The notes under the pieces are model-generated. The model was given only the letters and a program-made list of their open reading frames with translations. It was not told the DNA's origin and searched no databases. DNA of 64,000 nucleotides from Theodoxus fluviatilis (Eukaryota; Mollusca; Gastropoda; Cycloneritida; Neritidae). The stretch spans positions 47,501 to 111,500 of the forward strand of contig JAWQFJ010015172.1 in assembly GCA_034096865.1 (NCBI GenBank), read 5' to 3'. The position numbers and the translations under genes are program-made. Position 1 is the first letter of the stretch, and each line of letters starts with the position of its first letter. Shown piece by piece: positions 20,007 through 64,000 of the stretch.

Positions 20007-20068
<62 letters not shown>

Positions 20069-38275: not shown

Positions 38276-38599
38276 TGTCAGAAACGACACTTCCAAAGAA
38301 GCAGAGGGATAGGTGGAAGGTTTAATTTCCGATGGGCGGTAGCTGCATGAACTTCGGGTCACTGGCCATCAAAGCAAGGCGGGTCTCTTGAGACTGCTCG
38401 AGTTTCAATAAGCTCACGCATGGTAAGAAAGGCACTGGGAGTTGCGAAGATGAGGTGGGGTGGGGTGGTAGTTTAGGGGTGGGGGAGGGGTTCGTTCGGT
38501 ATGACTGTGCTGGCCGGTTGTTTGCTTTGGATGTTACGATGTTCGGTAGTTTGAGGTGACGAAGTTGGTCGCGTTGGTGGTGGTTGTTTTGGTGGTGGA

Positions 38600-38885
38600 A
38601 GCTGTGGTGGTAGCTAGAGTGAGCTGATGGTGGTAGTAGTTGTGGGGATAGCGGTGGTGGTGTTGGTGGTGTTGGTGGTGGTAGCAGTTTTGGTGGTAGC
38701 AATGTTGGTGGTGGCTAGAGTGGGGTGATAGTGGTAGTAGTTGAGGTGGTAGCGGTGGTGATGGTGGTGGTGGTAGTAGTTGTGGTGGTAGCGGTGGTGA
38801 TGGTGGTGGTGGTAGTAGTTGTGGTGGTAGCGGTGGTGGTGTTGGTGGTGGTAGTAGTTTTGGTGGTAGCGGTGGTGGTGGTAAC
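38600..38885. repeat. (GGT)n-rich minisatellite, left arm
   Basis: Imperfect 33-bp units made of GGTGGTGGTAGTAGTTGTGG-type sequence. On the minus strand they read as Tyr-Tyr-His-His repeats, a compositional artefact. Confidence 0.93.
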
Positions 38886-39228
38886 TAGTTTGAGGTACGG
38901 GAGGGGTTATTTCGGAATAAATTGTGTTGGGTGTCGATTTGCTTCGGATGTTACGATGTTGGGTAGTTTGAGGTGGGGGTGTTGGCAGTAGTAATAGGGG
39001 TGGTAATGGCGAAGATAGTGGTGCTTGAGATAGTGATGGTGGTGGCAGTAATGATGGTGAAATGGTAGTGGCGGTATGGAGGTTGGTGGTGGCGGTGGTA
39101 TTGATGATAAATCTCAGACTTAGCGGATTGATGTTGAGAGTGGTCGGCAATGTTGGGAGATAAGGTGTGGTTGCTTAGATCGTGGCTTGCGATGGCGTTG
39201 TTTTGCACAAAGATGAAATTAGGGTCGG

Positions 39229-39231
<3 letters not shown>

Positions 39232-39280
<49 letters not shown>

Positions 39281-39367
39281 TTTGATTTCTTTATTTGAGA
39301 GAGAGAGAGCGAGAGAGCGAGAGAGAGAGATTTGATTTCTTTATTTAAGAGAGAGATAGAGAGAGAG

Positions 39368-39405
<38 letters not shown>

Positions 39406-39426
39406 CTTTATTTGAGAGAGAGAGCG

Positions 39427-39483
<57 letters not shown>

Positions 39484-39491
39484 GAGAGAGA
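39232..39491. repeat. (GA)n microsatellite with TTTGATTTCTTTATTT interruptions, left arm
   Basis: GA runs are separated by three near-identical interruptions (about 39,280, 39,330 and 39,402), so a higher-order unit of about 50-70 bp is present. Confidence 0.94.
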
Positions 39492-41947
39492 ATACTTACT
39501 CGTATCTTTTTTGTTCGATTGCATTTCAGTTGGTTATTCAAGTGGCTGAGTACTATTTTCTATTTCTATGTGTGTTGTGCATGCGTTGAGACCTACGTAA
39601 ATTAACAGAGGACTATTGAACTTTACATGAGCAACATTGTGAAACAGATTTTAAAATAACACAGAATAAAAGGAAAAGCACCTGCAATAGGACAATCGAC
39701 TGGTCCCTATAGCCACCTCCCCGTTCCACTAGGTTTACCTGGCGTCTCTCAATCTCCATTACGTTCGGACCACATGTTATTTTTGTCGCAGTTGGAAGCC
39801 TCTGTATGGAAAAACTACTCTGGCGTGACCATTGGCCGTGTGAACAGGGAAGTACCGCCTTAGGGATGACTCTGCAAAGAAGCGAGGTGTATAAAGGAGT
39901 TGGTCACTGCCTCTAAGCACGTTGTAGGTGTCGTTTGTATCGATGTTCTCAATGGAGTCACAGTGTACGCGCTTGTTTGACTCAAGTCCTATTCAATATA
40001 ACTAGATATCCTTAGATAATAGAGTAACGTGATAACCACACCAGCAGCGACCGCTGTTGGTTCTCATAGCAGTGCTGAGAGATTATTTCCTCTCTACCTA
40101 TTTTATCAGATAAAGGTAAAGGTAAAGGTGTGATTTTATATAGCGACTTTCCAACATTGATCGGCGCTCAGACCGCATGACACTTTACCCCCTGATCACT
40201 GGGCATCTTGATCAATCCTCACTGGTACCTCACAACAAACATAGTGACTCGACCTAGATCTACATGGTATGGTTTGAATGGGAACGATCTATTTTTCAAT
40301 ATTATCGAAGAATGCAAGCTTGTTTATCTTTAGGAAATGCAAAGCAACACATACCTGTCAAGAAGGTGCTTTGCTGCCAGAAAGTCATTCGATTAAGTGA
40401 ATTCAGTTGCCATTTCGACAAAGATTATAGTTACAATCAAGCGTTGCCCTGCGACCTGCATTTCGATTGTTAAAAAGTAGGAGCTTTCAATACCTTTTGA
40501 TGCATTCAACATACAGCTTTGATAAATTAATGCTGTTCATGGCTTACATTTTCTTTGGATGGGTTTCTAGTATCCCAAAATATAGCTTTTTCTGTGCGAA
40601 CTGGAGAGAGCTCCGCCATTGAATTGCGCAAAGAGTAGACATAAACGCCATATCTACACGAAAGCAGTCCTCTGATTGGTTCCCTGAATAGAATCCTCCA
40701 ATCAGCAGGCAGCTTTCTTCGCCGTCTTGTCGCTAAGCGGTGTGATTACTTCCCCTTGATTCACCCCTAATACTCTCCGCTAGGTGCAGCGTCTTGTAAC
40801 TTTATATAGCAAAAGCTCGGCATGAGCTATCTTTGTGTAACCTATAATCTTTGGCCTCACACATAAAGTTATGGTATCATCGTTCTGAGCAGGGACTGAT
40901 GCTCAGCTCAGAGAGACTCGACTGCAGGTTATTGTTATTACGTTTACAGACTAACTGTGTTTCTTGAGAGACGCTACGTCCATTAATAGTGTCACTTCAG
41001 TATATTATTTTGTTGGCCTCAATTCTTGGTGGGAGCACTGTGTAGCTTTCGCCCATTCAAATTCACTCGTAATTTTTACAATCGGAGTTAATGGAACTGA
41101 CAAAAAACATATTTGGCGTGCAACATTTTATAACAAAAAAGTTGGAGTGCTTGCAGTAGTTCACAAGTTTTCGAAGATCATGAAGCGTAGTATCATCGTT
41201 CTGGCCGTTATGCCAAGGCGTGCAGTTCCTCTGTAACGCTCTTGTTCCCCGCAGCGCGTGCAATAGTTTCGAGGCATGCAATGCATGGAAATTTTGTGTT
41301 CTTGTCGGGAGAAGATAACACGTGATGTATTACACAGGCAAGGGACGTGGAAAGCATTTACTTGCCGGCTTCTGTGACGATCTTTTTATGCTAACAAAGG
41401 CGCATGATCAAAGAAACCCGGGCCGCCCCCTCCCATTGTCGATTCGGTGTCAATTTTTGTGGTTGAAACTAATGTGCTATTTGTATTAGTGCCAATGACA
41501 CTACCTGGCGAGACACGGGGCGTTCGTTCCCGCGTAGCTGCTGCCGCAATTAAATATTCAAAGGGGCTAGGCGGGAAAACCCCCCAGCAGACAATGAATA
41601 ATAGATATTGTCGCTGTAGATGAAGCAATATTGCATGCAGACGGATGAGATGGCAGATGTAAGGATAGAGGATAATATCAAAATGCAGATGGAGTGAAAT
41701 GCTTTTTCATGAATGAAATTGAATTTGATATTGTGCAGAGAAAACAGATAACAATGTCTTTGTATAATCAGTGCACGTGTCAGTAGCGACACTGCACCTG
41801 CTCGTATTGTCTGTGAGCAGACTACGCTGCTGACTAGATCTGAGGCCGTCAAACCGTGGCAGCGATGTGCTGGGCTGTTTACCCTGTAGGTAAGGATACA
41901 CGCCCTGCTTCTCCCGGCACGAGCTGAAAATGGCGAATAAGTAGGGA
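39492..41947. other. left-arm noncoding stretch with a promoter-like cluster
   Basis: GGTAAA trimers at about 40,115-40,130 lead into TATATAGCGACTTTCCAA. A plus-strand ATTGG (40,675-40,679), CCAAT (40,698-40,702) and TATATA (40,803-40,808) form a possible core promoter. No coding exon follows that I recognise. Mirrored in the right arm at about 60,329-62,784. Confidence 0.45.
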
Positions 41948-41956
41948 AGTCTAGAC

Positions 41957-42364
41957 CATTCTGTGAACCCGAGTCACGTGACTCTGGCGCAGTTCGCAAT
42001 GAATGCGTAATAGACTTCACCCTTCGCATTACAGCATTGCGCCGAAAACACTTCGTTCTGGACAGTATTTTTTCCATTTTTTAACATATATCATTCAGAT
42101 GTCAAAACTTGTTTCCATTTCAACACAAACATGTTATGTTTTCGAATAAACGCTTATTTATTGCCTCAACAAGCGTAATTTATGAGTTTTGTGCGACATC
42201 ATCTTAGAACTACTTTAACGGCGTATGTCAGGGAGCAGAGGGTCATCCCTCAAGCCTCTCATGTTACATCCTCATGCATATTCCGGACGAAAACCCTCCA
42301 TCACGTGCTATGAACTGTGCTAGAGACTGTCGCCGGCAGGCGAAGTCTCTAGTGGACTAGAATG
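41957..42364. mobile_element. MITE-like element with 9-bp target duplication, copy 2 (left arm)
   Basis: 408 bp, starting CATTCTGTGAACCCGAGTCA and ending GGACTAGAATG. It is flanked by perfect 9-bp direct repeats AGTCTAGAC (41,948-41,956 and 42,365-42,373). It is collinear with 5,277-5,692. Near its right end is a strong hairpin (TAGAGACTGTCGCC paired with GGCGAAGTCTCTA, about 42,321-42,352). Confidence 0.92.
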
Positions 42365-42373
42365 AGTCTAGAC

Positions 42374-42863
42374 TTGACTTGCTCTAATTTTGACAGTTCT
42401 AGCAATTGTCGCAATCAAAAGCCTTTCGTAGCCTATGCAGGCAGATAGCTTGTAAAGCTGAATTTATTTCCGTATTCATCATCTACATCCGCCCCCATTT
42501 TACTTTTTTGTGTACGTCAGTTACGTGGAAATTGCTTCCTCCGGCAATATTCCCTTTCAAAAACAAAACTTATACTCCTACTTATATACATATTTAATTA
42601 AATATTATTCATTTGTCTTGTAACATTTGACGACGTGTCAGTTTCATCGTAAACAAAACAGCAGAAATATCGGTTTGGGTGATGTCGTTGTGACATTTTT
42701 AGTTATTGACACTGGTTTGTATTGAATCATAGTAAAAGCAATTAGTATTCGAAATATTTTAGAAAATGAAAAAGGAAGCACACGTTTATGGCACTCAGAA
42801 TGCATAGGGAGTACATGTAGGTAGTTGGACACAACGAGTAAGTAAGGGCCAGAGAAGTTTGGG
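42374..42863. other. left-arm noncoding stretch
   Basis: AT-rich unique sequence with no supportable gene. Confidence 0.5.
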
Positions 42864-43225
42864 GGTGGGATGGATGGATGGATGGATGGATGAGTGGGGT
42901 GGGGTGGATGATTGAAGGGGAGTGGGGTAGGGTTGGATTGATGAATGAGGGTGGTGTGTGTGGTGGATGGATAAATGGGTGGATTGGGCAGGATGGATGA
43001 GTGAGTGAATTGGGGAGGATGGATGAGTGGGTGGGTGAATTGGGGTGGATGGATGAGTGAGTGGATATGGGGTGGATGTATGAGTGGGTGGATTGGGGTG
43101 GATGGATGAGTGGGTGGATTGGGGTGAATGGATGAGTGGGTGGATATGGGGTAGATGTATGAGTGGGTGGATGGATGAGTGGGTAGATTGGGGTGAATGG
43201 ATGAGTGGGTGGATTAGAGTGAGGG
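42864..43225. repeat. GGATGGATGAGTGGGT-type minisatellite, left arm
   Basis: Imperfect tandem units of GGTGGATGAGTGG, GGATTGGGGTGGATG and variants. Single-G length differences from the right-arm copy shift the pairing by 2 bases here. Confidence 0.93.
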
Positions 43226-44988
43226 TGGGGGTGGGACTCAGGGCGTCGTGATGCTCGAGGGCACTGGGACGGAACTAGGGCGGCGATCACGGATGACAGG
43301 GTCGAGCCGAACGCCTTTGAGCGTGGCGGGAGAGGGGGTCGCACAGTGCGTCACTGCAGGCCGTCCTGCGCCCCATCAACACGCCCGCACGCCCTCGCCG
43401 TGCGCGTGCATGCTCGACTGCACGTGCCACCCTTGATGTCGTCTTCTCCATCGAGGACTGGCAGAAGTGGGGGAGGTAAAAGGGGAGGGGGGGGGGAGGA
43501 GGGGGGTTGGGGATGGGGTTTGGGTAAAATGGAAGTGGATTGGTTATTAAAAGGAGTGGGAGTTTGTAAATTTTACAAGCACAGGTAGAACTATGAAAGA
43601 GTAGGTGTCATGGATAAAAAAGTGGATTGAAACAAACAAGTGGGTGGTGGGTGAGTGGGTGGATGGTGGGGGGAATGGAAGGAAGAAAAAGGAAGAAAAA
43701 GGAAGGAGGGAATAGTGTGAGGAAAAGTGGAGTGGGGGTGGGGATTTGAGGGTGGCGATTGGGGATTAGAGGGCGGAGGATGGGGATTAGAGGGTGGGAA
43801 ATGGGAGAGGAAGACATTGTTATCGTCACCGTTCACGGAATGCTCGCGCAGTCATGTGAAAAAGCAAGTAACGTACGTTGATTGCAGAGGCGGTGGAGAC
43901 AGCACAAAACCAAAGGATGCGTGCGGTGCACGGATATAAAACACAGGGGATGAGTGTGGATTCAGTGATAAGTTCCCGAGAAACACCCCATCCTACCATC
44001 TGTCCATTCATCGATCCATCCATCCACCCTTCCATCCGTTCTTTCTTCCGTCCGTCTATCCATACATCTCTCCTACATTACCTGACGGGAATCACAAGGG
44101 GGGTTCAAGCTGTCCAGGTCTGATTGCTTCCATGCTCTCTGGAGGTCAGTCTCAGGGGACTCGGCGACCTCGTTTGTGGCTAATGGTCTGGAGACACCCA
44201 CCTGTCCCCTTCTCCCTCTTCCTCTTTCCTACCTCCAATCCACCCCACCCACCCACCCTTAACCAGGTCTCTGAGCAGTGACGATGCAGGTGTAATTAGC
44301 TCCTTGGACGCATTACAGTTACCTAACTTGGTCCCCAGGGCGGCGCCACGGTAGCTCGGACCCCTTGGGGTTGCTGAGATTGCCTCCCTTGATTAGCGTC
44401 CACTATCCCTCGGCAGGGGGCGCACCGTCGGTTGTTTTGATTTCCAGAGCTGCGCGGTGGGGCGATAAATATCACGTGAATGCTCCCCCCCCCCCCGTCT
44501 CTTCCACGCTAATCCCTACCCCCGTCCCCTCCACTCTTCCCCATCCTCTCCACCAGCCATCCCAGACCCCTCTCTACGTCAAACGCCTGCGTGCGGAAGA
44601 ACCAGGGGGATGACGTGAGCTCCAAAGCTAGTGGTTCCACGTCTTTCGGCGATTGATGGATCGGTAGCCAGCCCTGTCTCGCCCCAGCGGTTCCTACCTG
44701 GACGAGGTCCGTATCGAATTGCGCTCGTCCCATGATTTAGCGGCCCTGTCATGGCCGTCTGTCTCGAAACCGTCTCGCCTGCCCGGCCTGGGAAGACTCA
44801 GGCGGGGATCTTGGGGTCCAGGAGCCAATAGGAATTATTCCGATAAAAAAGAGAGACAATCCTGCAAGCTTGGATACGAGTTACGGTTCCTGAAGCACAG
44901 TCAAACTTCAAGATTTCCAGTCAGTCTGACACAGAAGAGCGTGTGTTATAATCGGCGCGGATTTTGTGTAATTCAAGCTTATTACAGT
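43226..44988. other. left-arm stretch upstream of the THAP exon
   Basis: Contains G-rich blocks (43,465-43,530 and 43,635-43,815), a poly-C run (about 44,486-44,497) and a unique GC-richer island (44,280-44,480). The last 150 bases presumably include the promoter and 5' UTR of the THAP gene. I can identify no TATA box there with confidence. Confidence 0.45.
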
Positions 44989-45192
44989 ATGGTAAAACGC
45001 TGTAGTTGGGGCACTTGCAATGCAGATAGCAGGTATCCTGACCGATATCCTGGTGTCAATTTTTTCCCGTTTGCTAAACCGACAAGAACCCACAACAGAG
45101 ATAAATGTCTGCGATGGATCAAAGCGTGTGGTCGCCCGCATTCCCAACTCAACGTCGACAACATACGGCGATGGATGTATGTTTGCTCCCAA
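44989..45192 (+). CDS. THAP-type zinc-finger protein, first coding exon (left arm)
   Basis: A THAP (C2CH) DNA-binding domain starting at its own Met, as THAP domains typically do: MVKRCSWGTC supplies Cys5 and Cys10. Further family hallmarks are FFPF (residues 25-28), the invariant Trp43 in CLRWIKACGRPHSQLN, and Cys66 in YVCSQ. The zinc-binding His is missing, but the exon ends two residues after Cys66, at the donor GTAAGT (45,193-45,198, phase 0). The His should therefore be the first residue of the next exon (VCSxH in the family). THAP proteins bind DNA; many are transcription factors or derive from P-element- or Kolobok-type transposases. Exon 2 is not visible in the window. The open frame upstream to 44,719 has no THAP homology and is taken as UTR. 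A convergent SAP/SWIM gene begins 0.9 kb downstream, so introns would overlap if both genes are active. Confidence 0.85.
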
Positions 45193-45198
45193 GTAAGT
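45193..45198 (+). other. splice donor of the THAP exon (left arm)
   Basis: GTAAGT follows the Cys-Ser-Gln codons directly. This is the consensus donor at the position where THAP genes are commonly split. Confidence 0.8.
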
Positions 45199-45322
45199 CG
45201 AAACAGCTGTTTTTTTTTACAATTATTACCCTTCACTTTAATTAAAAACTATTATGTGTGTGTGTTGTGTGTGTAGACATAAAACGTAGATCTATTCAAG
45301 ATTGCGTGTGCACTCTCCCTAC

Positions 45323-45742
45323 GAAAATTTTCGGCAAACCTGCAGTTTAGAGGCGAGTCCCGCTTGTGGGTTTTCATGCATTTTAATGCGTTTTTCGCTA
45401 AAATACAATTATTGGGTTTAAATACAATCATATTTACACACATTGTACACATATTCGAGCCTATGTACATTAGAATTAACTCACAATTTAATGCCGAAAT
45501 GACCGACTGTCGCAGAGCGTCATGGCCGCCATGTACTGTTTGTGTTGTGACGATCGGTCACTTCGGCATTAAATTGTGAGTTAATTCTAATGCACATAGG
45601 CTCGAATATGTGTGTGTATGAGTGTAAGTATGATTGTATTTAAAGCGTATAATTGTATTTGAGCGATAAACTCATTAAAACGCATGAAAACCGGCAACAA
45701 GCAGGACCCGCCTCTAAACTGCAGGTTTGCCAAATTTTCTTC
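45323..45742. mobile_element. foldback element with ~190-bp inverted arms (left arm)
   Basis: The left half (45,323-about 45,512), starting GAAAATTTTCGGCAAACCTG, is the imperfect reverse complement of the right half (about 45,553-45,742). The spacer of about 40 bp contains ATGGCCGCCAT. The inner arms (TTAATGCCGAA and the 30 bp beside it) match best and the outer arms have diverged at many sites. No coding capacity is seen. It lies in the presumed intron shared by the convergent THAP and SAP/SWIM genes. I could not identify a target duplication. It is a foldback MITE or a decayed local inverted duplication. Confidence 0.8.
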
Positions 45743-46098
45743 AGCTGATCTTTTTCTTCGTTTTTTATTTATTTAATTTTTATTATTATTAAAATTAGCT
45801 TGTGAAAAGGTGGAATGTGTACTGTAACACTACTTAAAAGGATTTTGTTTTATGTACATAAGTGCCATGCATGCCTGCAGCCTACTGAGTCAGTGTACAA
45901 AGCATTTGTGTGGGTGTGGTTTGAATGACTGCATGCTTGTGTACATCACTACATAAGTACATGTATGCTTGTGATGAGTGAGTGCATATGAACCATATAA
46001 CTGAGTGTATGCATGTGTTGCAATGTAGGGTTGTATGTGTGTATTACTATAGTATTAAGAGTGAGCCAGAGTCTTCCGTTAAGATTACAGTATAGGCT

Positions 46099-46104
46099 AC
46101 ATAC
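46099..46104 (-). other. splice donor of the SAP/SWIM exon (left arm)
   Basis: Minus-strand GTATGT directly after the codons for CTCKG. The open frame beyond it (YVAYTVILTEDS) does not look like protein family sequence. Confidence 0.75.
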
Positions 46105-46658
46105 CCGCCTTTGCAAGTGCAAAATGCTGACAAGATGCAGCTTCTGGTCCTGTTTCCCAGTGTTGACATGATAATCCAGGGGTAGTAGAAAGCTGCACCT
46201 GTTACTGGATCTTTGTCTCTAGTTCTAGGTTTCACATGTGCCTTCAGCGCAAAGTACTCGGAATGTTCTGGAAATGAGACAACTTCCATCGCCTTCACAT
46301 ATCCATCCGTCATCATCGTATATCCTTCTGACTTTTGGAAATCTCGTACGGTTGCATGGTCTAAAGTGCTCATAAGGTACGTGAACACATCGAACATACT
46401 GAAAAAAGGCAACGCGGAAAGGTCGCTGCTACCCGCATGAAGTGAAGGGTTCGGTAACTTCACATCGCCGTCGGTCAGTTTGTCAACAATGATTTCTTCT
46501 CTGTCTTCGTATAATCCATCGGGATCAAACTCCAGGCTAATACCTCTCGCAATCTCACACAATTCCGCTAGTTCAGTCTTTTTTTGGCCAGACACAGTCA
46601 CACCACGATCTCTCAAAAAAGCTTGAAATTCAGATACTCGACGCAAGGAAGTCGCCAT
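46105..46658 (-). CDS. SAP-like and SWIM-finger protein, first coding exon (left arm)
   Basis: The 184-codon exon starts at ATG 46,658 in a good context (A at -3, G at +4). Residues 8-40 (VSEFQAFLRDRGVTVSGQKK and following) have the pattern of a SAP-like DNA-binding helix pair: short helix, glycine turn, K-K-T-E-L-A-E-L helix. Residues 133-182 (YFALKAHVKPRTRD, WIIMS, SAFCTCKGG) match the beta-strands leading to a SWIM zinc finger, with C180-x-C182 as its first half. The exon then ends at donor GTATGT (46,104 downward, phase 2). The second half (C-x-H) and any C-terminal domain, such as YqaJ-type nuclease in proteins I associate with this architecture, would be in later exons not seen here. 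Function is unknown; nucleic-acid binding is likely. Confidence 0.8.
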
Positions 46659-48326
46659 GTTTGACTGAGTATTGGGCGGAGTAACTCTTACCGTTGCTAG
46701 AAAACGAGTAACTTCCCATTTAGGAATTAAGCCTATTGGGACCTGACATCGGACGCCACAATGTCAGGGATATGTGACCAACGTCTACCGGGCGTGGCCA
46801 GGTTTCCCCCGCACTAGAGGCAGTTTACCCCGTCAAAGCATCGATGCGCACGCGATAGCTGGGGAGATGTTAGGAAGCCTTAACCGTCTGCTGTTTGTAG
46901 TGATTCATTAAGGACTGGAAATCATGGGTGTCGCCAGTATAACTGACTCGCCGCTGTCTGTGAAATCCCTGGGCGGTTCAGGCGTGATGTGAAGGACAGA
47001 CGGGAGGAATGACTAGTCTGATGAATGGGGGCTGTACAGGCGATTGCTGCTGATTGCTGTGCGACACTGGGAGGGGCCATTTGAAATGCCGCAAAGTGAC
47101 AGCGCGGTGGCCAATGGTCAAAGCGTCTGTACACAAGTGCACTGCTATATACTATGTTCTGGTCATTAAAAGAAATCAGAGCATCAATCTGTTATTAAAC
47201 TAGATCACATGCAAAGACTAGAGATAAAGGTTATTACTAACTATAATCAATCTTAGACGATTTGTAAGTTGTTCACAGAGTTTTATGTGTCAAAGTCCAG
47301 ATACTGTGAACTACTTTGACTCCGAATTATATAAGTTGATTTACTCCTGGTACCGCGAAAAATCAATGAAAATACTAGATGTGGAAACATGGAATGACCA
47401 TCAAGTACGACGTTTCTAAAGGCAAAGCATTCCCACGGTATTTAACATAATCTGCAGTGTCTATCATTCCGATCTTCACGTGCAGTTCCTACAATGGCCA
47501 CTAATGAATTTACCGCGTCTTTCAAATATTCATTTTTCACTGAATCAGGCCGCAGTACGATCTGCCCTAACCCCACGGGGCTAACGAGGATCAAAGACGG
47601 ATTGCCTTGCAATGGCTGCCTACCTGGGTTCTCCTTTCACCTGAGAGGTAGATGGAGACAAATTGTTTTAGAATGGCTTCTTGCCGCGTTCAATGGGACG
47701 AGAGGGGGCGCTTTCGCGCGCTCCACACACTGAGGCACCCAACACAATGGGGTGGTCGGGTCGATTCCGCCCTGATTGTCTCCCTTTGTTGGCCTCAGTG
47801 CGCATGACAGGAAGACGCCTGCCTTGGGAGAGACAAGCCAGTGTCCGATGACAGGAGGACGGGTCACGTGGCTTGTTGAGCCTGTCTTCCTCTGCTCCTC
47901 TTTAATGTGGGCAAAAGGGGTTGCTACCGGGAGAGAGAGAGAGAACGAACGAACGAACGAACAAACGAATTATTTTTTGAGAGGCCATCAGCCCATTTCA
48001 ATGAAAATTTACAATTTGAATTAAAAACACAAGAAGATGTAAATACACTTCGTTGCTTTAAAGCGGTGGATGGACCGTGTTCATTACCTGGCAAAACATG
48101 CTGACATCTCTTCATATTAAAGCCACATTCATGACGGATTGATAGAATCTGTTTTTGCATATAGTGACATCCCTCAAAACAAATCTGCATTCACACTCAT
48201 CTATTCTACACCCCCAGCACTTCTTTTGAAAGAATGATATAGGTACAAGCCAACATTGTGCCGTACTTCACAATCTCTTGTGCCCAAGAAACATAGCTGT
48301 TGACTCCTAAAACCATGTATTTTGGG
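46659..48326. other. left-arm noncoding stretch
   Basis: Upstream region of the SAP/SWIM gene followed by unique DNA and a short (GAAC)n near 47,943-47,970. No other gene recognised. Confidence 0.5.
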
Positions 48327-48389
<63 letters not shown>

Positions 48390-48451
48390 GTGTGTGTGTC
48401 TCTGTATTTGTGCAGTGTGTGTATGTGTGTGTGTGTGTTCTCTGCATGCAC

Positions 48452-48531
<80 letters not shown>

Positions 48532-48532
48532 G
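48327..48532. repeat. (GATA)n-(GA)n, (TG)n and (TA)n microsatellites, left arm
   Basis: GATA then GA at 48,327-48,386, short TG repeats, then an uninterrupted TA run at 48,457-48,522 continuing into TG. The pairing sum changes by 5 here, so the two arms differ in repeat length. Confidence 0.95.
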
Positions 48533-50537
48533 TGTGTGTGTGTGTGTGTGTGTGCGTGCGTCCGTGCGTGTGTTAGCGTGCATGCTTGGGTATAGAAGGA
48601 TATGCGTAGATACGCAAGCTGTCTGGCATGAAAATGAATAACAGCAGACTGATTTGGGAACCCAACTTCATTTCTCTGCAATTGTCAATATCAGAATGAG
48701 ATGACGTCGGCGGAAGCTAGTCTGGAGGACACTGTTATGATGAAGAGGTGAGGCAACGAAATACAATAGAGTGCCATCTGCTCAGCACACTTTTTCATAT
48801 CTCGGTCTGCAGTCTGGCAGGAAGTCTGCATGTCTACTTGCAGCAGGTGCATTGATGCAGAGAACTCCTGCTGTGCATGATGAGCCCCATGTCTGTGTGC
48901 ACGAAGGTTCTCTGTCAAAACTGACAACTTGTCTGATGACACGCAACTCCCTCTGTGATCGTTCCTATGAGTTGTATCCACGCAGAAAGCATGCTCTACT
49001 TCTACCACTACACAACTCTTTGCTCCCTCACAACTCTGTCTGCTTGGAGATTGACTATACCTGTACCCTGCACATCTCAGTTGCTGGCGTAGCTAAGCTT
49101 ATCGCTGTACCTATCTTACTCTCAGCTGTAGAACTGGCTGCTGGCGTCGCGCAGGAAGTGATCTGTGCGCATGCGCTTGGCAGCCGCGGTTCGAACCGGG
49201 GCTAATTAATTCTTCATCCATTAAGGGCAGCACATGTCGCCACGGTAATGCTGCTCACTCGGGCGTCGCCCCTCCATCCATTCTGATAATTGTTTTGGGG
49301 CTGCTGCCGTGGACACGTGACGCGAACCCAAGGGCGAGTAACTCTGGCCACTTCCGCCAGCTTAGTTGACACCTGGCGCGAGCGGATGCGGCGCTTAAAC
49401 GGTGAAGAGCGCATGCGCGGGTCAGCGCGGTCACGTGTGAGGCTAACGCATGCGTGATAGAGCCTCTGCTTCTGAGAATTGGGAGAGGGGATAGAGTGGA
49501 TGGGTCAGTGCCATTCTTGTAAAGCACAGCAATCCCTCCCTTGGGATGTGTCTGGAGGTGGTGCATAACGCCATAAGATCAGATTAGGGAAAGCACGTAT
49601 GTGAGCAACACATGGTGTTTATAATCGGATATAGCACAGAAGGAAGTGCCAGTTTGTTGATGAATTTTCTCCCTTAATTAAAGTAGAAAATTTAATGAAA
49701 ATATTTCATACATAAAGAAACAAGGAGACGCATTTTCACCGTCATTCCGTGTCCTTTTATATTCAGAAAACATTGCATTTGCAGTGGTAGAACTGATGGT
49801 ATTACAATCACTGCATTTCGAATGAAACGGTAAATGCGTGTATATGCTGCGGTCATACCACATACATGTATGTTCAAAGATTGATCAAGCAGACTGCTGA
49901 TCTGGGAATTGGGTGTAAAGAGGTTTGAGCTCAAGATATGGGTAAAAAGCCGCAATAGAAAACTCATATGTTTGCCTGTAACCCTCGTAAACCCAATAGT
50001 CGGCACTCAGCAGCCTCCATCCCTCGCGATCCAGCCAACAACTCCCCACACTCTGCACACTCATGACATCACGTGATCTAACCAGGGCATGGAGTTATCT
50101 CCCATGCCGGAGTGTTGCCTTTCCGCCTGGCCGTCCGCTCAAGGCTGCGTGGTCATCACAGCATGGCGACCCCGTCCTTCGCTGCCCCGCACCCTGTCAC
50201 TGGAGCCGCACTGCTCTGTGCACGCAGCCTCCGTCTTTCCCGCCTTTGTCTGAAAAGCCTGTTCATGCCGTCAGCTGACTTGGATGACAGAGGGGAGATG
50301 AGGAAATGAGTCCGGATAGAAATCAGTCGATAGGGAGCTCATGTTTCGTCCTTGTGTGCAGACAGCAGCTCGGGCTGTTGCTGGTCTATGGTCATAGTGT
50401 CATGGTTCAAGATCAGCAATGTGTGAAGCTGAGTGCGTTGTCACAAGTTGTTGCTTGTCCCGCTTTACAGGTAATTACCTGGATTTAGGGTCAAGCAGGC
50501 ACTTGTGCTTTCGCTACTTATGTAGTGTGTTGGACCG
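48533..50537. other. left-arm noncoding stretch
   Basis: A GC-richer unique segment at about 49,130-49,460 includes GGTTCGAACC (49,189-49,198), which resembles a tRNA T arm but has no supporting acceptor or D arm. No gene recognised. Confidence 0.45.
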
Positions 50538-50927
50538 ACCTCTCTCTCTCTCTCTCTCTCTCGTTCTCTTTCTCTCTCTCCGTCTCTTTCTTCTTTTTCT
50601 TGTTCTCTTTCTCTCTCTCTCACTCTGTATCTCTCTCTCGCTCACTCTCTCTTTCTCTGTCTCTCTCTCTCTCTCGGTCTCTCTCTCTCGTTCTCTTTCT
50701 CTCTCTCCATCTCTTTCTCTCGTTCTCTTTCTCTCTCACTCTGTATCTCTCTCGCTCACTCTCTCTTTCTCTCTCTGTCTCTGTCTCTCTCTGTCTCTTT
50801 CTCTCTCTCTCACATACACACACACACCCTCTCTCTTTCACTCCCCCCCTCCCTTCTCTCTCTCTCTCACTCTCTCTCTCACTCTATCTCACACACACAC
50901 ACACCCTCTCTCTTTCACTCCCCCCTC

Positions 50928-50960
<33 letters not shown>
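50538..50960. repeat. (CT)n-rich satellite block with internal duplications, left arm
   Basis: CT repeats interspersed with CGTTCTCTTTCTCTC units and two copies of a CACACACACACCCTCTC module (about 50,819 and 50,892). The long Ser-Leu open frames are artefacts. Confidence 0.94.
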
Positions 50961-50963
<3 letters not shown>

Positions 50964-51306: not shown

Positions 51307-51309
<3 letters not shown>

Positions 51310-51342
<33 letters not shown>

Positions 51343-53738: not shown

Positions 53739-53818
<80 letters not shown>

Positions 53819-53880
53819 GTGCATGCAGAGAACACACACACACACATACACACACTGCACAAATACAGAGACACACACAC

Positions 53881-53947
<67 letters not shown>

Positions 53948-53948
53948 C
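53739..53948. repeat. (TA)n, (CA)n, (CT)n and (TATC)n microsatellites, right arm
   Basis: Mirror of 48,327-48,532, with a slightly different tract length. Confidence 0.95.
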
Positions 53949-55616
53949 CCAAAATACATGGTTTTAGGAGTCAACAGCTATGTTTCTTGGGCACAAGAGA
54001 TTGTGAAGTACGGCACAATGTTGGCTTGTACCTATATCATTCTTTCAAAAGAAGTGCTGGGGGTGTAGAATAGATGAGTGTGAATGCAGATTTGTTTTGA
54101 GGGATGTCACTATATGCAAAAACAGATTCTATCAATCCGTCATGAATGTGGCTTTAATATGAAGAGATGTCAGCATGTTTTGCCAGGTAATGAACACGGT
54201 CCATCCACCGCTTTAAAGCAACGAAGTGTATTTAACATCTTCTTGTGTTTTTAATTCAAATTGTAAATTTTCATTGAAATGGGCTGATGGCCTCTCAAAA
54301 AATAATTCGTTTGTTCGTTCGTTCGTTCGTTCTCTCTCTCTCTCCCGGTAGCAACCCCTTTTGCCCACATTAAAGAGGAGCAGAGGAAGACAGGCTCAAC
54401 AAGCCACGTGACCCGTCCTCCTGTCATCGGACACTGGCTTGTCTCTCCCAAGGCAGGCGTCTTCCTGTCATGCGCACTGAGGCCAACAAAGGGAGACAAT
54501 CAGGGCGGAATCGACCCGACCACCCCATTGTGTTGGGTGCCTCAGTGTGTGGAGCGCGCGAAAGCGCCCCCTCTCGTCCCATTGAACGCGGCAAGAAGCC
54601 ATTCTAAAACAATTTGTCTCCATCTACCTCTCAGGTGAAAGGAGAACCCAGGTAGGCAGCCATTGCAAGGCAATCCGTCTTTGATCCTCGTTAGCCCCGT
54701 GGGGTTAGGGCAGATCGTACTGCGGCCTGATTCAGTGAAAAATGAATATTTGAAAGACGCGGTAAATTCATTAGTGGCCATTGTAGGAACTGCACGTGAA
54801 GATCGGAATGATAGACACTGCAGATTATGTTAAATACCGTGGGAATGCTTTGCCTTTAGAAACGTCGTACTTGATGGTCATTCCATGTTTCCACATCTAG
54901 TATTTTCATTGATTTTTCGCGGTACCAGGAGTAAATCAACTTATATAATTCGGAGTCAAAGTAGTTCACAGTATCTGGACTTTGACACATAAAACTCTGT
55001 GAACAACTTACAAATCGTCTAAGATTGATTATAGTTAGTAATAACCTTTATCTCTAGTCTTTGCATGTGATCTAGTTTAATAACAGATTGATGCTCTGAT
55101 TTCTTTTAATGACCAGAACATAGTATATAGCAGTGCACTTGTGTACAGACGCTTTGACCATTGGCCACCGCGCTGTCACTTTGCGGCATTTCAAATGGCC
55201 CCTCCCAGTGTCGCACAGCAATCAGCAGCAATCGCCTGTACAGCCCCCATTCATCAGACTAGTCATTCCTCCCGTCTGTCCTTCACATCACGCCTGAACC
55301 GCCCAGGGATTTCACAGACAGCGGCGAGTCAGTTATACTGGCGACACCCATGATTTCCAGTCCTTAATGAATCACTACAAACAGCAGACGGTTAAGGCTT
55401 CCTAACATCTCCCCAGCTATCGCGTGCGCATCGATGCTTTGACGGGGTAAACTGCCTCTAGTGCGGGGGAAACCTGGCCACGCCCGGTAGACGTTGGTCA
55501 CATATCCCTGACATTGTGGCGTCCGATGTCAGGTCCCAATAGGCTTAATTCCTAAATGGGAAGTTACTCGTTTTCTAGCAACGGTAAGAGTTACTCCGCC
55601 CAATACTCAGTCAAAC
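53949..55616. other. right-arm mirror of 46,659-48,326
   Basis: Upstream side of the right-arm SAP/SWIM exon. A one-base indel against the left arm lies near 54,233 (TTTAACATC against TTTACATC). No gene recognised. Confidence 0.5.
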
Positions 55617-56170
55617 ATGGCGACTTCCTTGCGTCGAGTATCTGAATTTCAAGCTTTTTTGAGAGATCGTGGTGTGACTGTGTCTGGCCAAAAAAAGACT
55701 GAACTAGCGGAATTGTGTGAGATTGCGAGAGGTATTAGCCTGGAGTTTGATCCCGATGGATTATACGAAGACAGAGAAGAAATCATTGTTGACAAACTGA
55801 CCGACGGCGATGTGAAGTTACCGAACCCTTCACTTCATGCGGGTAGCAGCGACCTTTCCGCGTTGCCTTTTTTCAGTATGTTCGATGTGTTCACGTACCT
55901 TATGAGCACTTTAGACCATGCAACCGTACGAGATTTCCAAAAGTCAGAAGGATATACGATGATGACGGATGGATATGTGAAGGCGATGGAAGTTGTCTCA
56001 TTTCCAGAACATTCCGAGTACTTTGCGCTGAAGGCACATGTGAAACCTAGAACTAGAGACAAAGATCCAGTAACAGGTGCAGCTTTCTACTACCCCTGGA
56101 TTATCATGTCAACACTGGGAAACAGGACCAGAAGCTGCATCTTGTCAGCATTTTGCACTTGCAAAGGCGG
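55617..56170 (+). CDS. SAP-like and SWIM-finger protein, first coding exon (right arm)
   Basis: Identical at the protein level to the left-arm copy at 46,105-46,658 but on the opposite strand: 184 full codons from ATG 55,617 (context AAACATGG) to the donor GTATGT at 56,171. It has the N-terminal SAP-like segment and the first half (C-x-C) of a SWIM finger near its end. If the palindrome is real, this is a second gene copy transcribed toward the right, converging on the THAP copy. Absolute identity means the duplication is very recent, homogenised by gene conversion, or artefactual. The open frame past 56,170 to a stop near 56,228 is intron read-through. Confidence 0.8.
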
Positions 56171-56176
56171 GTATGT
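56171..56176 (+). other. splice donor of the SAP/SWIM exon (right arm)
   Basis: GTATGT after GGCGG, phase 2. Confidence 0.75.
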
Positions 56177-56532
56177 AGCCTATACTGTAATCTTAACGGA
56201 AGACTCTGGCTCACTCTTAATACTATAGTAATACACACATACAACCCTACATTGCAACACATGCATACACTCAGTTATATGGTTCATATGCACTCACTCA
56301 TCACAAGCATACATGTACTTATGTAGTGATGTACACAAGCATGCAGTCATTCAAACCACACCCACACAAATGCTTTGTACACTGACTCAGTAGGCTGCAG
56401 GCATGCATGGCACTTATGTACATAAAACAAAATCCTTTTAAGTAGTGTTACAGTACACATTCCACCTTTTCACAAGCTAATTTTAATAATAATAAAAATT
56501 AAATAAATAAAAAACGAAGAAAAAGATCAGCT

Positions 56533-56952
56533 GAAGAAAATTTGGCAAACCTGCAGTTTAGAGGCGGGTCCTGCTTGTTGCCGGTTTTCATGCGTTTTAA
56601 TGAGTTTATCGCTCAAATACAATTATACGCTTTAAATACAATCATACTTACACTCATACACACACATATTCGAGCCTATGTGCATTAGAATTAACTCACA
56701 ATTTAATGCCGAAGTGACCGATCGTCACAACACAAACAGTACATGGCGGCCATGACGCTCTGCGACAGTCGGTCATTTCGGCATTAAATTGTGAGTTAAT
56801 TCTAATGTACATAGGCTCGAATATGTGTACAATGTGTGTAAATATGATTGTATTTAAACCCAATAATTGTATTTTAGCGAAAAACGCATTAAAATGCATG
56901 AAAACCCACAAGCGGGACTCGCCTCTAAACTGCAGGTTTGCCGAAAATTTTC
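56533..56952. mobile_element. foldback element with ~190-bp inverted arms (right arm)
   Basis: Mirror of 45,323-45,742, with the same spacer motif. Confidence 0.8.
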
Positions 56953-57075
56953 GTAGGGAGAGTGCACACGCAATCTTGAATAGATCTACGTTTTATGTCT
57001 ACACACACAACACACACACATAATAGTTTTTAATTAAAGTAAGGGTAATAATTGTAAAAAAAAACAGCTGTTTCG

Positions 57076-57081
57076 ACTTAC
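57076..57081 (-). other. splice donor of the THAP exon (right arm)
   Basis: Minus-strand GTAAGT, phase 0, mirror of 45,193-45,198. Confidence 0.8.
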
Positions 57082-57285
57082 TTGGGAGCAAACATACATC
57101 CATCGCCGTATGTTGTCGACGTTGAGTTGGGAATGCGGGCGACCACACGCTTTGATCCATCGCAGACATTTATCTCTGTTGTGGGTTCTTGTCGGTTTAG
57201 CAAACGGGAAAAAATTGACACCAGGATATCGGTCAGGATACCTGCTATCTGCATTGCAAGTGCCCCAACTACAGCGTTTTACCAT
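57082..57285 (-). CDS. THAP-type zinc-finger protein, first coding exon (right arm)
   Basis: The 68 codons are identical to those of the left-arm THAP exon: Cys5, Cys10, Trp43 and Cys66 are all present. The exon starts at ATG 57,285-57,283 and ends at the minus-strand donor GTAAGT (57,081-57,076). The upstream sequence differs from the left arm within about 15 bases near 57,449-57,466 (two substitutions and one indel), so the longer open frames upstream of the Met differ completely between the arms. That supports the internal Met as the true start. The zinc-ligand His must come from the next exon, which is not visible. Confidence 0.85.
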
Positions 57286-59049
57286 ACTGTAATAAGCTTG
57301 AATTACACAAAATCCGCGCCGATTATAACACACGCTCTTCTGTGTCAGACTGACTGGAAATCTTGAAGTTTGACTGTGCTTCAGGAACCGTAACTCGTAT
57401 CCAAGCTTGCAGGATTGTCTCTCTTTTTTATCGGAATAATTCCTATTGCTCGTGGACGCCAAGATCCCCGCCTGAGTCTTCCCAGGCCGGGCAGGCGAGA
57501 CGGTTTCGAGACAGACGGCCATGACAGGGCCGCTAAATCATGGGACGAGCGCAATTCGATACGGACCTCGTCCAGGTAGGAACCGCTGGGGCGAGACAGG
57601 GCTGGCTACCGATCCATCAATCGCCGAAAGACGTGGAACCACTAGCTTTGGAGCTCACGTCATCCCCCTGGTTCTTCCGCACGCAGGCGTTTGACGTAGA
57701 GAGGGGTCTGGGATGGCTGGTGGAGAGGATGGGGAAGAGTGGAGGGGACGGGGGTAGGGATTAGCGTGGAAGAGACGGGGGGGGGGGGAGCATTCACGTG
57801 ATATTTATCGCCCCACCGCGCAGCTCTGGAAATCAAAACAACCGACGGTGCGCCCCCTGCCGAGGGATAGTGGACGCTAATCAAGGGAGGCAATCTCAGC
57901 AACCCCAAGGGGTCCGAGCTACCGTGGCGCCGCCCTGGGGACCAAGTTAGGTAACTGTAATGCGTCCAAGGAGCTAATTACACCTGCATCGTCACTGCTC
58001 AGAGACCTGGTTAAGGGTGGGTGGGTGGGGTGGATTGGAGGTAGGAAAGAGGAAGAGGGAGAAGGGGACAGGTGGGTGTCTCCAGACCATTAGCCACAAA
58101 CGAGGTCGCCGAGTCCCCTGAGACTGACCTCCAGAGAGCATGGAAGCAATCAGACCTGGACAGCTTGAACCCCCCTTGTGATTCCCGTCAGGTAATGTAG
58201 GAGAGATGTATGGATAGACGGACGGAAGAAAGAACGGATGGAAGGGTGGATGGATGGATCGATGAATGGACAGATGGTAGGATGGGGTGTTTCTCGGGAA
58301 CTTATCACTGAATCCACACTCATCCCCTGTGTTTTATATCCGTGCACCGCACGCATCCTTTGGTTTTGTGCTGTCTCCACCGCCTCTGCAATCAACGTAC
58401 GTTACTTGCTTTTTCACATGACTGCGCGAGCATTCCGTGAACGGTGACGATAACAATGTCTTCCTCTCCCATTTCCCACCCTCTAATCCCCATCCTCCGC
58501 CCTCTAATCCCCAATCGCCACCCTCAAATCCCCACCCCCACTCCACTTTTCCTCACACTATTCCCTCCTTCCTTTTTCTTCCTTTTTCTTCCTTCCATTC
58601 CCCCCACCATCCACCCACTCACCCACCACCCACTTGTTTGTTTCAATCCACTTTTTTATCCATGACACCTACTCTTTCATAGTTCTACCTGTGCTTGAAA
58701 AATTTTACAAACTCCCACTCCTTTTAATAACCAATCCACTTCCATTTTACCCAAACCCATCCCCAACCCCCCTCCTCCCCCCCCCCCTCCCCTTTTACCT
58801 CCCCCACTTCTGCCAGTCCTCGATGGAGAAGACGACATCAAGGGTGGCACGTGCAGTCGAGCATGCACGCGCACGGCGAGGGCGTGCGGGCGTGTTGATG
58901 GGGCGCAGGACGGCCTGCAGTGACGCACTGTGCGACCCCCTCTCCCGCCACGCTCAAAGGCGTTCGGCTCGACCCTGTCATCCGTGATCGCCGCCCTAGT
59001 TCCGTCCCAGTGCCCTCGAGCATCACGACGCCCTGAGTCCCACCCCCAC
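57286..59049. other. right-arm mirror of 43,226-44,988
   Basis: C-rich blocks and the same GC-richer island. Differs from the left arm near 58,697-58,712 by a substitution and an indel and in homopolymer lengths near 58,770-58,790. Confidence 0.45.
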
Positions 59050-59412
59050 CCTCACTCTAATCCACCCACTCATCCATTCACCCCAATCTACCCACTCATC
59101 CATCCACCCACTCATACATCTACCCCATATCCACCCACTCATCCATTCACCCCAATCCACCCACTCATCCATCCACCCCAATCCACCCACTCATACATCC
59201 ACCCCATATCCACTCACTCATCCATCCATCCCAATTCACCCACCCACTCATCCATCCTCCCCAATTCACTCACTCATCCATCCTGCCCAATCCACCCATT
59301 TATCCATCCACCACACACACCACCCTCATTCATCAATCCAACCCTACCCCCACTCCCCTTCAATCATCCACCCCCACCCCACTCATCCATCCATCCATCC
59401 ATCCATCCCACC
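59050..59412. repeat. CCATCCACCCACTCAT-type minisatellite, right arm
   Basis: Mirror of 42,864-43,225. It carries two extra single C bases, which change the frame of the Pro/His/Ser open frame. Confidence 0.93.
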
Positions 59413-59911
59413 CCCAAACTTCTCTGGCCCTTACTTACTCGTTGTGTCCAACTACCTACATGTACTCCCTATGCATTCTGAGTGCCATAAACGTGTGCTT
59501 CCTTTTTCATTTTCTAAAATATTTCGAATACTAATTGCTTTTACTATGATTCAATACAAACCAGTGTCAATAACTAAAAATGTCACAACGACATCACCCA
59601 AACCGATATTTCTGCTGTTTTGTTTACGATGAAACTGACACGTCGTCAAATGTTACAAGACAAATGAATAATATTTAATTAAATATGTATATAAGTAGGA
59701 GTATAAGTTTTGTTTTTGAAAGGGAATATTGCCGGAGGAAGCAATTTCCACGTAACTGACGTACACAAAAAAGTAAAATGGGGGCGGATGTAGATGATGA
59801 ATACGGAAATAAATTCAGCTTTACAAGCTATCTGCCTGCATAGGCTACGAAAGGCTTTTGATTGCGACAATTGCTAGAACTGTCAAAATTAGAGCAAGTC
59901 AAGTCTAGACT

Positions 59912-60319
59912 CATTCTAGTCCACTAGAGACTTCGCCTGCCGGCGACAGTCTCTAGCACAGTTCATAGCACGTGATGGAGGGTTTTCGTCCGGAATATGC
60001 ATGAGGATGTAACATGAGAGGCTTGAGGGATGACCCTCTGCTCCCTGACATACGCCGTTAAAGTAGTTCTAAGATGATGTCGCACAAAACTCATAAATTA
60101 CGCTTGTTGAGGCAATAAATAAGCGTTTATTCGAAAACATAACATGTTTGTGTTGAAATGGAAACAAGTTTTGACATCTGAATGATATATGTTAAAAAAT
60201 GGAAAAAATACTGTCCAGAACGAAGTGTTTTCGGCGCAATGCTGTAATGCGAAGGGTGAAGTCTATTACGCATTCATTGCGAACTGCGCCAGAGTCACGT
60301 GACTCGGGTTCACAGAATG
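59912..60319. mobile_element. MITE-like element with 9-bp target duplication, copy 3 (right arm)
   Basis: Mirror of copy 2, flanked by GTCTAGACT on both sides. It is a consequence of the palindrome and not an independent insertion. Confidence 0.92.
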
Positions 60320-60328
60320 GTCTAGACT

Positions 60329-62784
60329 TCCCTACTTATTCGCCATTTTCAGCTCGTGCCGGGAGAAGCAGGGCGTGTATCCTTACCTACAGGGTAAACA
60401 GCCCAGCACATCGCTGCCACGGTTTGACGGCCTCAGATCTAGTCAGCAGCGTAGTCTGCTCACAGACAATACGAGCAGGTGCAGTGTCGCTACTGACACG
60501 TGCACTGATTATACAAAGACATTGTTATCTGTTTTCTCTGCACAATATCAAATTCAATTTCATTCATGAAAAAGCATTTCACTCCATCTGCATTTTGATA
60601 TTATCCTCTATCCTTACATCTGCCATCTCATCCGTCTGCATGCAATATTGCTTCATCTACAGCGACAATATCTATTATTCATTGTCTGCTGGGGGGTTTT
60701 CCCGCCTAGCCCCTTTGAATATTTAATTGCGGCAGCAGCTACGCGGGAACGAACGCCCCGTGTCTCGCCAGGTAGTGTCATTGGCACTAATACAAATAGC
60801 ACATTAGTTTCAACCACAAAAATTGACACCGAATCGACAATGGGAGGGGGCGGCCCGGGTTTCTTTGATCATGCGCCTTTGTTAGCATAAAAAGATCGTC
60901 ACAGAAGCCGGCAAGTAAATGCTTTCCACGTCCCTTGCCTGTGTAATACATCACGTGTTATCTTCTCCCGACAAGAACACAAAATTTCCATGCATTGCAT
61001 GCCTCGAAACTATTGCACGCGCTGCGGGGAACAAGAGCGTTACAGAGGAACTGCACGCCTTGGCATAACGGCCAGAACGATGATACTACGCTTCATGATC
61101 TTCGAAAACTTGTGAACTACTGCAAGCACTCCAACTTTTTTGTTATAAAATGTTGCACGCCAAATATGTTTTTTGTCAGTTCCATTAACTCCGATTGTAA
61201 AAATTACGAGTGAATTTGAATGGGCGAAAGCTACACAGTGCTCCCACCAAGAATTGAGGCCAACAAAATAATATACTGAAGTGACACTATTAATGGACGT
61301 AGCGTCTCTCAAGAAACACAGTTAGTCTGTAAACGTAATAACAATAACCTGCAGTCGAGTCTCTCTGAGCTGAGCATCAGTCCCTGCTCAGAACGATGAT
61401 ACCATAACTTTATGTGTGAGGCCAAAGATTATAGGTTACACAAAGATAGCTCATGCCGAGCTTTTGCTATATAAAGTTACAAGACGCTGCACCTAGCGGA
61501 GAGTATTAGGGGTGAATCAAGGGGAAGTAATCACACCGCTTAGCGACAAGACGGCGAAGAAAGCTGCCTGCTGATTGGAGGATTCTATTCAGGGAACCAA
61601 TCAGAGGACTGCTTTCGTGTAGATATGGCGTTTATGTCTACTCTTTGCGCAATTCAATGGCGGAGCTCTCTCCAGTTCGCACAGAAAAAGCTATATTTTG
61701 GGATACTAGAAACCCATCCAAAGAAAATGTAAGCCATGAACAGCATTAATTTATCAAAGCTGTATGTTGAATGCATCAAAAGGTATTGAAAGCTCCTACT
61801 TTTTAACAATCGAAATGCAGGTCGCAGGGCAACGCTTGATTGTAACTATAATCTTTGTCGAAATGGCAACTGAATTCACTTAATCGAATGACTTTCTGGC
61901 AGCAAAGCACCTTCTTGACAGGTATGTGTTGCTTTGCATTTCCTAAAGATAAACAAGCTTGCATTCTTCGATAATATTGAAAAATAGATCGTTCCCATTC
62001 AAACCATACCATGTAGATCTAGGTCGAGTCACTATGTTTGTTGTGAGGTACCAGTGAGGATTGATCAAGATGCCCAGTGATCAGGGGGTAAAGTGTCATG
62101 CGGTCTGAGCGCCGATCAATGTTGGAAAGTCGCTATATAAAATCACACCTTTACCTTTACCTTTATCTGATAAAATAGGTAGAGAGGAAATAATCTCTCA
62201 GCACTGCTATGAGAACCAACAGCGGTCGCTGCTGGTGTGGTTATCACGTTACTCTATTATCTAAGGATATCTAGTTATATTGAATAGGACTTGAGTCAAA
62301 CAAGCGCGTACACTGTGACTCCATTGAGAACATCGATACAAACGACACCTACAACGTGCTTAGAGGCAGTGACCAACTCCTTTATACACCTCGCTTCTTT
62401 GCAGAGTCATCCCTAAGGCGGTACTTCCCTGTTCACACGGCCAATGGTCACGCCAGAGTAGTTTTTCCATACAGAGGCTTCCAACTGCGACAAAAATAAC
62501 ATGTGGTCCGAACGTAATGGAGATTGAGAGACGCCAGGTAAACCTAGTGGAACGGGGAGGTGGCTATAGGGACCAGTCGATTGTCCTATTGCAGGTGCTT
62601 TTCCTTTTATTCTGTGTTATTTTAAAATCTGTTTCACAATGTTGCTCATGTAAAGTTCAATAGTCCTCTGTTAATTTACGTAGGTCTCAACGCATGCACA
62701 ACACACATAGAAATAGAAAATAGTACTCAGCCACTTGAATAACCAACTGAAATGCAATCGAACAAAAAAGATACGAGTAAGTAT
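60329..62784. other. right-arm mirror of 39,492-41,947
   Basis: Same promoter-like cluster on the minus strand. No gene recognised. Confidence 0.45.
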
Positions 62785-62792
62785 TCTCTCTC

Positions 62793-62849
<57 letters not shown>

Positions 62850-62870
62850 CGCTCTCTCTCTCAAATAAAG

Positions 62871-62908
<38 letters not shown>

Positions 62909-62995
62909 CTCTCTCTCTATCTCTCTCTTAAATAAAGAAATCAAATCTCTCTCTCTCGCTCTCTCGCTCTCTCTCTCTCAAATAAAGAAATCAAA

Positions 62996-63044
<49 letters not shown>
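62785..63044. repeat. (CT)n microsatellite, right arm
   Basis: Mirror of 39,232-39,491, with the same AAATAAAGAAATCAAA interruptions. Confidence 0.94.
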
Positions 63045-63047
<3 letters not shown>

Positions 63048-63390
63048 CCGACCCTAATTTCATCTTTGTGCAAAACAACGCCATCGCAAGCCACGATCTA
63101 AGCAACCACACCTTATCTCCCAACATTGCCGACCACTCTCAACATCAATCCGCTAAGTCTGAGATTTATCATCAATACCACCGCCACCACCAACCTCCAT
63201 ACCGCCACTACCATTTCACCATCATTACTGCCACCACCATCACTATCTCAAGCACCACTATCTTCGCCATTACCACCCCTATTACTACTGCCAACACCCC
63301 CACCTCAAACTACCCAACATCGTAACATCCGAAGCAAATCGACACCCAACACAATTTATTCCGAAATAACCCCTCCCGTACCTCAAACTA

Positions 63391-63676
63391 GTTACCACCA
63401 CCACCGCTACCACCAAAACTACTACCACCACCAACACCACCACCGCTACCACCACAACTACTACCACCACCACCATCACCACCGCTACCACCACAACTAC
63501 TACCACCACCACCATCACCACCGCTACCACCTCAACTACTACCACTATCACCCCACTCTAGCCACCACCAACATTGCTACCACCAAAACTGCTACCACCA
63601 CCAACACCACCAACACCACCACCGCTATCCCCACAACTACTACCACCATCAGCTCACTCTAGCTACCACCACAGCT
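63391..63676. repeat. (ACC)n-rich minisatellite, right arm
   Basis: Mirror of 38,600-38,885. Confidence 0.93.
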
Positions 63677-64000
63677 TCCACCACCAAAACAACCACCACC
63701 AACGCGACCAACTTCGTCACCTCAAACTACCGAACATCGTAACATCCAAAGCAAACAACCGGCCAGCACAGTCATACCGAACGAACCCCTCCCCCACCCC
63801 TAAACTACCACCCCACCCCACCTCATCTTCGCAACTCCCAGTGCCTTTCTTACCATGCGTGAGCTTATTGAAACTCGAGCAGTCTCAAGAGACCCGCCTT
63901 GCTTTGATGGCCAGTGACCCGAAGTTCATGCAGCTACCGCCCATCGGAAATTAAACCTTCCACCTATCCCTCTGCTTCTTTGGAAGTGTCGTTTCTGACA

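Follow-up and report, generated by a model that had tools for sequence, protein, structure and literature searches.

A near-perfect palindrome of about 26 kb in a contig of Theodoxus fluviatilis, probably the product of a technical fold-back

A stretch of 64,000 nucleotides from the neritid snail Theodoxus fluviatilis (assembly GCA_034096865.1, contig JAWQFJ010015172.1, positions 47,501 to 111,500; hereafter the window) contains a palindrome that spans about 26 kb and holds, in each of its arms, one copy of a THAP-like exon and one copy of an exon related to SWIM-type mollusc proteins. On piecewise re-alignment the two inverted arms (Table 1) are identical in 12,833 of 12,852 columns (99.85%). 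Reverse-complement 20-mers taken over the whole window pair 38276-51101 with 51170-64000 along a single anti-diagonal, with coordinate sums of 102270-102276, and the remaining inverted 20-mer matches listed in the window are those of one simple repeat with another. The arm length of about 12.85 kb is a lower bound: the match ends at 38276 because the window ends at 64000, the base of which 38276 is the mirror. Chance can be excluded as the origin of the palindrome, since the length of the arms alone suffices for this. A preliminary description of this DNA had reported the near-perfect arms, the mirrored coordinates with these sums, and a right arm cut by the window that would leave the palindrome possibly longer, and on all of these points our results agree with it. 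The spacer, which it had given as 35 bp, is 34 bp in the re-alignment, base 51118 being the last that is paired and 51153 its partner.

The axis of the palindrome has a structure of its own. The innermost 17 bp form an imperfect stem that carries two of the six substitutions found between the arms, an excess of mismatches over the arms as a whole (p = 2.6e-5; the limits and widths of this test, as of the tests on the 42900-45234 cluster and on the outer 4.6 kb below, were chosen after viewing the data). Beside the stem one additional A on the left lets a few more bases pair. The region 51085-51186 folds as a DNA hairpin with -35.7 kcal/mol and a z of -11, as any palindrome centre would. When 1-51000 was scanned for stems of 17 bp with at most two mismatches and a loop of 20-50, 238 were found, and the 18 that passed a low-complexity filter lie at two loci, both within longer natural fold-back repeats. 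An open reading frame (ORF) that crosses the axis (51111-51275) had no homologue in a protein search that might have revealed an independent contig or a related species with the same axis, which is a weak test as the ORF is probably non-coding. It is known that a strand can snap back at a short hairpin in cells and also during library preparation or sequencing. An imperfect stem that passes into near-perfect arms would be the trace expected of such snap-back priming at a pre-existing inverted repeat, because the stem alone would then be native on both sides. A stem older than the arms would account for the surplus of mismatches beside the axis, but misread bases there would give the same picture.

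Table 1. Features of the palindrome and of its arms, in window coordinates.
Feature	Position	Strand	Basis or remark
Left arm	38276..51118	+	Reverse-complement alignment to 51153-64000, 99.85%; outer end may extend further left
Spacer (loop), 34 bp	51119..51152	.	51118 pairs with 51153
Right arm, truncated by window end	51153..64000	-	Reverse-complement alignment
Inner stem, left half, imperfect	51102..51118	+	17 bp, 2 substitutions against right half
Inner stem, right half, imperfect	51153..51169	-	Pairs with 51102-51118
Difference cluster, 11 of 16 arm events	42900..45234	+	Arm alignment
AG microsatellite	48355..48384	+	15 units in left arm, 17 in right arm
THAP-like exon, left copy	44989..45195	+	tblastn matches from 33/33 relatives overlap; Pfam THAP 17.8 bits
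THAP-like exon, right copy	57079..57285	-	tblastn matches from 33/33 relatives overlap
Exon related to SWIM-type mollusc proteins, left copy	46104..46658	-	12/12 relatives match
Exon related to SWIM-type mollusc proteins, right copy	55617..56171	+	12/12 relatives match
Natural fold-back repeat in left arm, like a miniature inverted-repeat transposable element (MITE), mirrored in right arm	45323..45739	.	83.7% self-complementary

The left copy of the THAP-like exon scores below the Pfam THAP cut-off of 23.9, which two of its relatives (P0022 and P0023) pass, and since P0023 additionally has HTH_Tnp_4 (DDE endonucleases) the exon may be transposon-derived. It is 95-96% identical to the protein P0013, which comes from a 951-bp contig, and among its 33 protein matches the 13 with organism names comprise nine bivalves, one abalone, two Branchiostoma and one fish. 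The second exon is identical to the protein P0001, from contigs no longer than 2,988 bp, at 192 of 193 aligned residues and has 55% identity to a SWIM-type protein of Littorina saxatilis (P0004). Two of its 12 protein relatives have organism names, Littorina and Dreissena, and the right arm at 55617-56324 is an exact mirror of the left. A Pfam scan of this exon itself gave no match, SWIM being found only in its relatives, above the cut-off in P0004 and below it in P0012. When the whole window was searched by tblastn with the 45 relatives (E up to 0.01) for later exons of either gene, only these two exons were matched, and 11 downstream protein parts, themselves of uncertain conservation, gave six matches in the window (E 0.35-0.98) among which nothing was recognised. 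What had been described as two DNA-binding-protein genes would thus be at best two first exons, one THAP-like and one related to SWIM-type proteins, and the DNA-binding assignment has partial support, given the low THAP score of the one and the lack of a Pfam match in the other. The protein relatives of the two exons point to a mollusc-like animal. No RNA families or tRNAs were found in the window at default thresholds.

These contents bear on the idea that the palindrome is a transposon, or some other element, whose inverted ends are very long. The genome does have small natural fold-back repeats (26708-26831 and 45323-45739), and the HTH_Tnp_4 of P0023 could be taken to point the same way, but the arms are heterogeneous, combining numerous microsatellites with two exons unrelated to each other, and no end is visible. 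Pfam found no transposase domain in the five versions of arm ORFs that were scanned. On these grounds we set the candidate low and consider it highly improbable.

Sixteen events separate the two arms: nine single-base insertions or deletions (indels; at 42900, 42923, 43486, 43515, 43567, 44825, 45234, 48039 and 51019), one 4-bp step in the AG microsatellite at 48354, and six substitutions (left-arm positions 43045, 43575, 44815, 44821, 51102 and 51106). Indels therefore make up 10 of the 16. A MAFFT alignment showed 30 mismatch and 11 gap columns, and its mismatches do not represent additional events because 15 of them come from the overlaying of the two spacer halves and nine from a smeared G run. 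Eight of the nine single-base indels alter a single-base run, when 42-44% would be expected of indels placed at random in the left arm (p = 0.006-0.008), and five fall in runs of at least four bases on the longer side (6-8% expected, p = 0.0001-0.0003); the ninth, at 45234, changes no run. The events are also clustered, with 11 of them in the 2.3 kb of 42900-45234 (2.9 expected; binomial p = 1.3e-5, or about 0.0005 when scanned) and none in the outer 4.6 kb of the arms (p = 0.0008), the outermost being that at 42900. Base composition varies within the cluster, from 46% G in 42900-43600 to 23% G in 44800-45240. Mutation is usually faster in long microsatellites than at single sites, and age should therefore appear in them first. 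Of the pure microsatellites 12 of 14, including (TA)34, are equal in length between the arms, and those that differ are a G run (10 against 11) and the AG array. Taken together, the differences look more like consensus error than ageing.

The same differences bear on whether the assembler made a head-to-head join of both haplotypes of the locus, an error known from assemblies of heterozygous animals. Two haplotypes of a mollusc would probably differ by more than the 16 events, 10 indels among them, that occur over 12.85 kb. The number and kind of events, their clustering and the unchanged microsatellites tend to favour one molecule or locus, present twice, over a pair of haplotypes. A further comparison is possible with P0013 and P0001, on the presumption that these independent proteins come from the same species. 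P0013 ends in ...SCFFYNYYPYFN, and both arms need a frame change in a T run to read this tail; beyond that run, translation gives YNYYPYFN for the right arm, in agreement with P0013, and YNYYPSL for the left. The additional C at 45234 is therefore private to the left arm. One arm thus matches independent sequence here and the other does not, as alleles would. Upstream, P0013 ceases to match the left arm at 44827, and in the right arm the match extends for another two residues (57453). P0001 diverges from the window after residue 193, where the arms are identical, eight codons past the last base conserved among relatives. Four places thus allow a comparison with P0001 or P0013. At two of them (after residue 193, and in the T run before 45220) the arms agree with each other and depart from the independent sequence, and at the other two (upstream of 44827, and at 45234) they are unlike each other; their agreement against independent sequence speaks mildly against two haplotypes. 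We regard a haplotype join as very unlikely. Three arm differences lie within 11 bp at 44815-44826, adjoining the position where the match of P0013 to the left arm stops, and this small cluster is perhaps the edge of an inserted repeat.

We consider that the palindrome is probably a fold-back artefact of reading or assembly and not a new structure of the genome. One genomic stretch would have been read or assembled outwards and then back again through a fold-back at the short imperfect hairpin. This could start from a free 3' end during library repair or amplification, or from a polymerase strand jump or a missed adapter in long-read sequencing. Once the free end or strand had paired with the opposite half of the inner stem, it would be extended or read along the complementary strand. 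The outcome would be a nearly exact mirror copy in which the hairpin loop is left as the 34-bp spacer, and the residual differences between the arms would be consensus errors. Fold-back artefacts are common, and it is this together with the indel-rich spectrum that leads us to place a technical event before one in the animal, neither being decisive. If the arms are two readings of one molecule or locus, the differences should be errors; the single polarised event, at 45234, is private to the left arm, and the six substitutions are left over. Precedents exist. Chimeric reads, together with polymerase strand jumps and missed adapters, were detected and corrected in a hawkmoth assembly (PMC6977585), and in work on the gorilla Y numerous inverted duplications in one assembly were undetected after palindrome correction of amplified reads (PMC6218980).

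Several observations weigh against a technical origin. Of the eight run indels, the five in runs of at least four bases lie in G-rich or A-rich stretches of 42900-43600, a segment with twice the arm-wide frequency of such runs (15% of bases compared with 8%). The other three are only one base against two. True mutations also favour indels that change the length of runs. The six arm substitutions could be true mutations, and three of the arm events lie close together at 44815-44825. The spacer is not known to match a sequencing adapter, no adapter library having been searched. Inverted duplications reduce the accuracy of nanopore base-calling (PMC7229812), and a real palindrome would likewise be hard to polish, so that residual errors do not separate an artefact from a real palindrome. 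Finally, the 17-bp stem and 34-nt loop also fit fold-back inversions formed in cells.

It is possible, if distinctly less probable, that the palindrome is a real and very young inverted duplication of the germline (or soma), with arms kept near-identical through youth or gene conversion. A broken end would snap back at the imperfect 17-bp stem and be copied, and the duplicate would be retained; the inner stem and loop at the axis fit this route. Yeast fold-back inversions include imperfect stems, which are increased in the sae2 rad10 double mutant (4/11; PMC7467729), and human inverted duplications arise by fold-back at short inverted microhomology (PMC3907307), although with spacers of 766-70,466 bp. 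Retention of such a structure is illustrated by a Caenorhabditis inverted repeat with 2,207-bp arms, a 126-bp spacer and 99.7% identity (PMC1803023). In eukaryotic cells a 52-bp spacer stops the frequent replication stalling at inverted Alus and one of 12 bp does not (PMC7999016), and for this reason a spacer of 34 bp is compatible with a real palindrome. Against this, the same work reports that risk rises with longer and more similar arms and with a shorter spacer (PMC7999016). If the palindrome is real, its six substitutions also suggest an older date than microsatellites unchanged in 12 of 14 cases would permit at usual rates. That snap-back at an imperfect 17-bp hairpin should have produced a near-perfect palindrome, 12.85 kb or more in each arm with a 34-bp spacer, which is very young or maintained by conversion and persists in a mollusc-like nuclear genome despite its expected instability, appears doubtful. 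The preliminary description had set a young duplication, a fold-back artefact and a haplotype join side by side; the fold-back artefact now comes first, the window alone does not decide between it and a young palindrome, and the haplotype join has become unlikely on the spectrum of the 16 events.

Comparison with known systems helps to place the palindrome. Y-chromosome palindromes have mirrored gene pairs and arms of more than 99% identity, as here. The inverted repeats maintained in Caenorhabditis are similar in both respects, but have shorter arms and a longer spacer and are conserved in several species (PMC1803023). Palindromic, or inverted chimeric, long reads share with the present case adjacent near-identical arms of one locus and error-like differences (PMC6218980; PMC6977585), whereas here the axis has a 34-bp loop within an imperfect stem and the structure is known from assembled sequence alone. 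Hairpin fold-back inversions in yeast are alike in their short stem, and the 34-nt loop is near the yeast median of 36 nt; unlike the present palindrome, they are observed rearrangements with a known parental sequence (PMC7467729). Human fold-back inverted duplications share a non-duplicated spacer edged by inverted homology, and differ in the far greater length of that spacer (PMC3907307). No report of the present palindrome was found among the titles listed for the topics of fold-back reads, methods and mechanisms.

If the palindrome is technical, it marks fold-back reads that were left uncorrected, and gene copies, depth and inversion calls in the assembly could err at such axes. An imperfect inner stem together with indel-rich differences between the arms might then serve as a cheap flag for fold-back artefacts. 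If it is real, it would be, as far as is known, an unusually long and closely spaced palindrome for an animal, and the stability of germline palindromes would become directly testable.

Other repeats and elements are present in the window. A dispersed repeat is common to the arm (41957-42364) and the left flank (5277-5692), with 82.8% identity between the two, and the short fold-back repeat at 26708-26831 is MITE-like and 88.7% self-complementary. The left flank also contains a fragment of a Tc3-type transposase (3201-3713, minus strand; HTH_Tnp_Tc3_2) and a reverse-transcriptase fragment at 16678-17842, where a first ORF carries RVT_1 and a second, overlapping one follows in a different frame. 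At 14798-14916 a 9-bp unit is repeated in a perfect tandem array of 13.2 copies with 100% matches, and at 19930-21245 an 18-bp unit forms an array of 1.3 kb whose long open frames probably do not represent genes.
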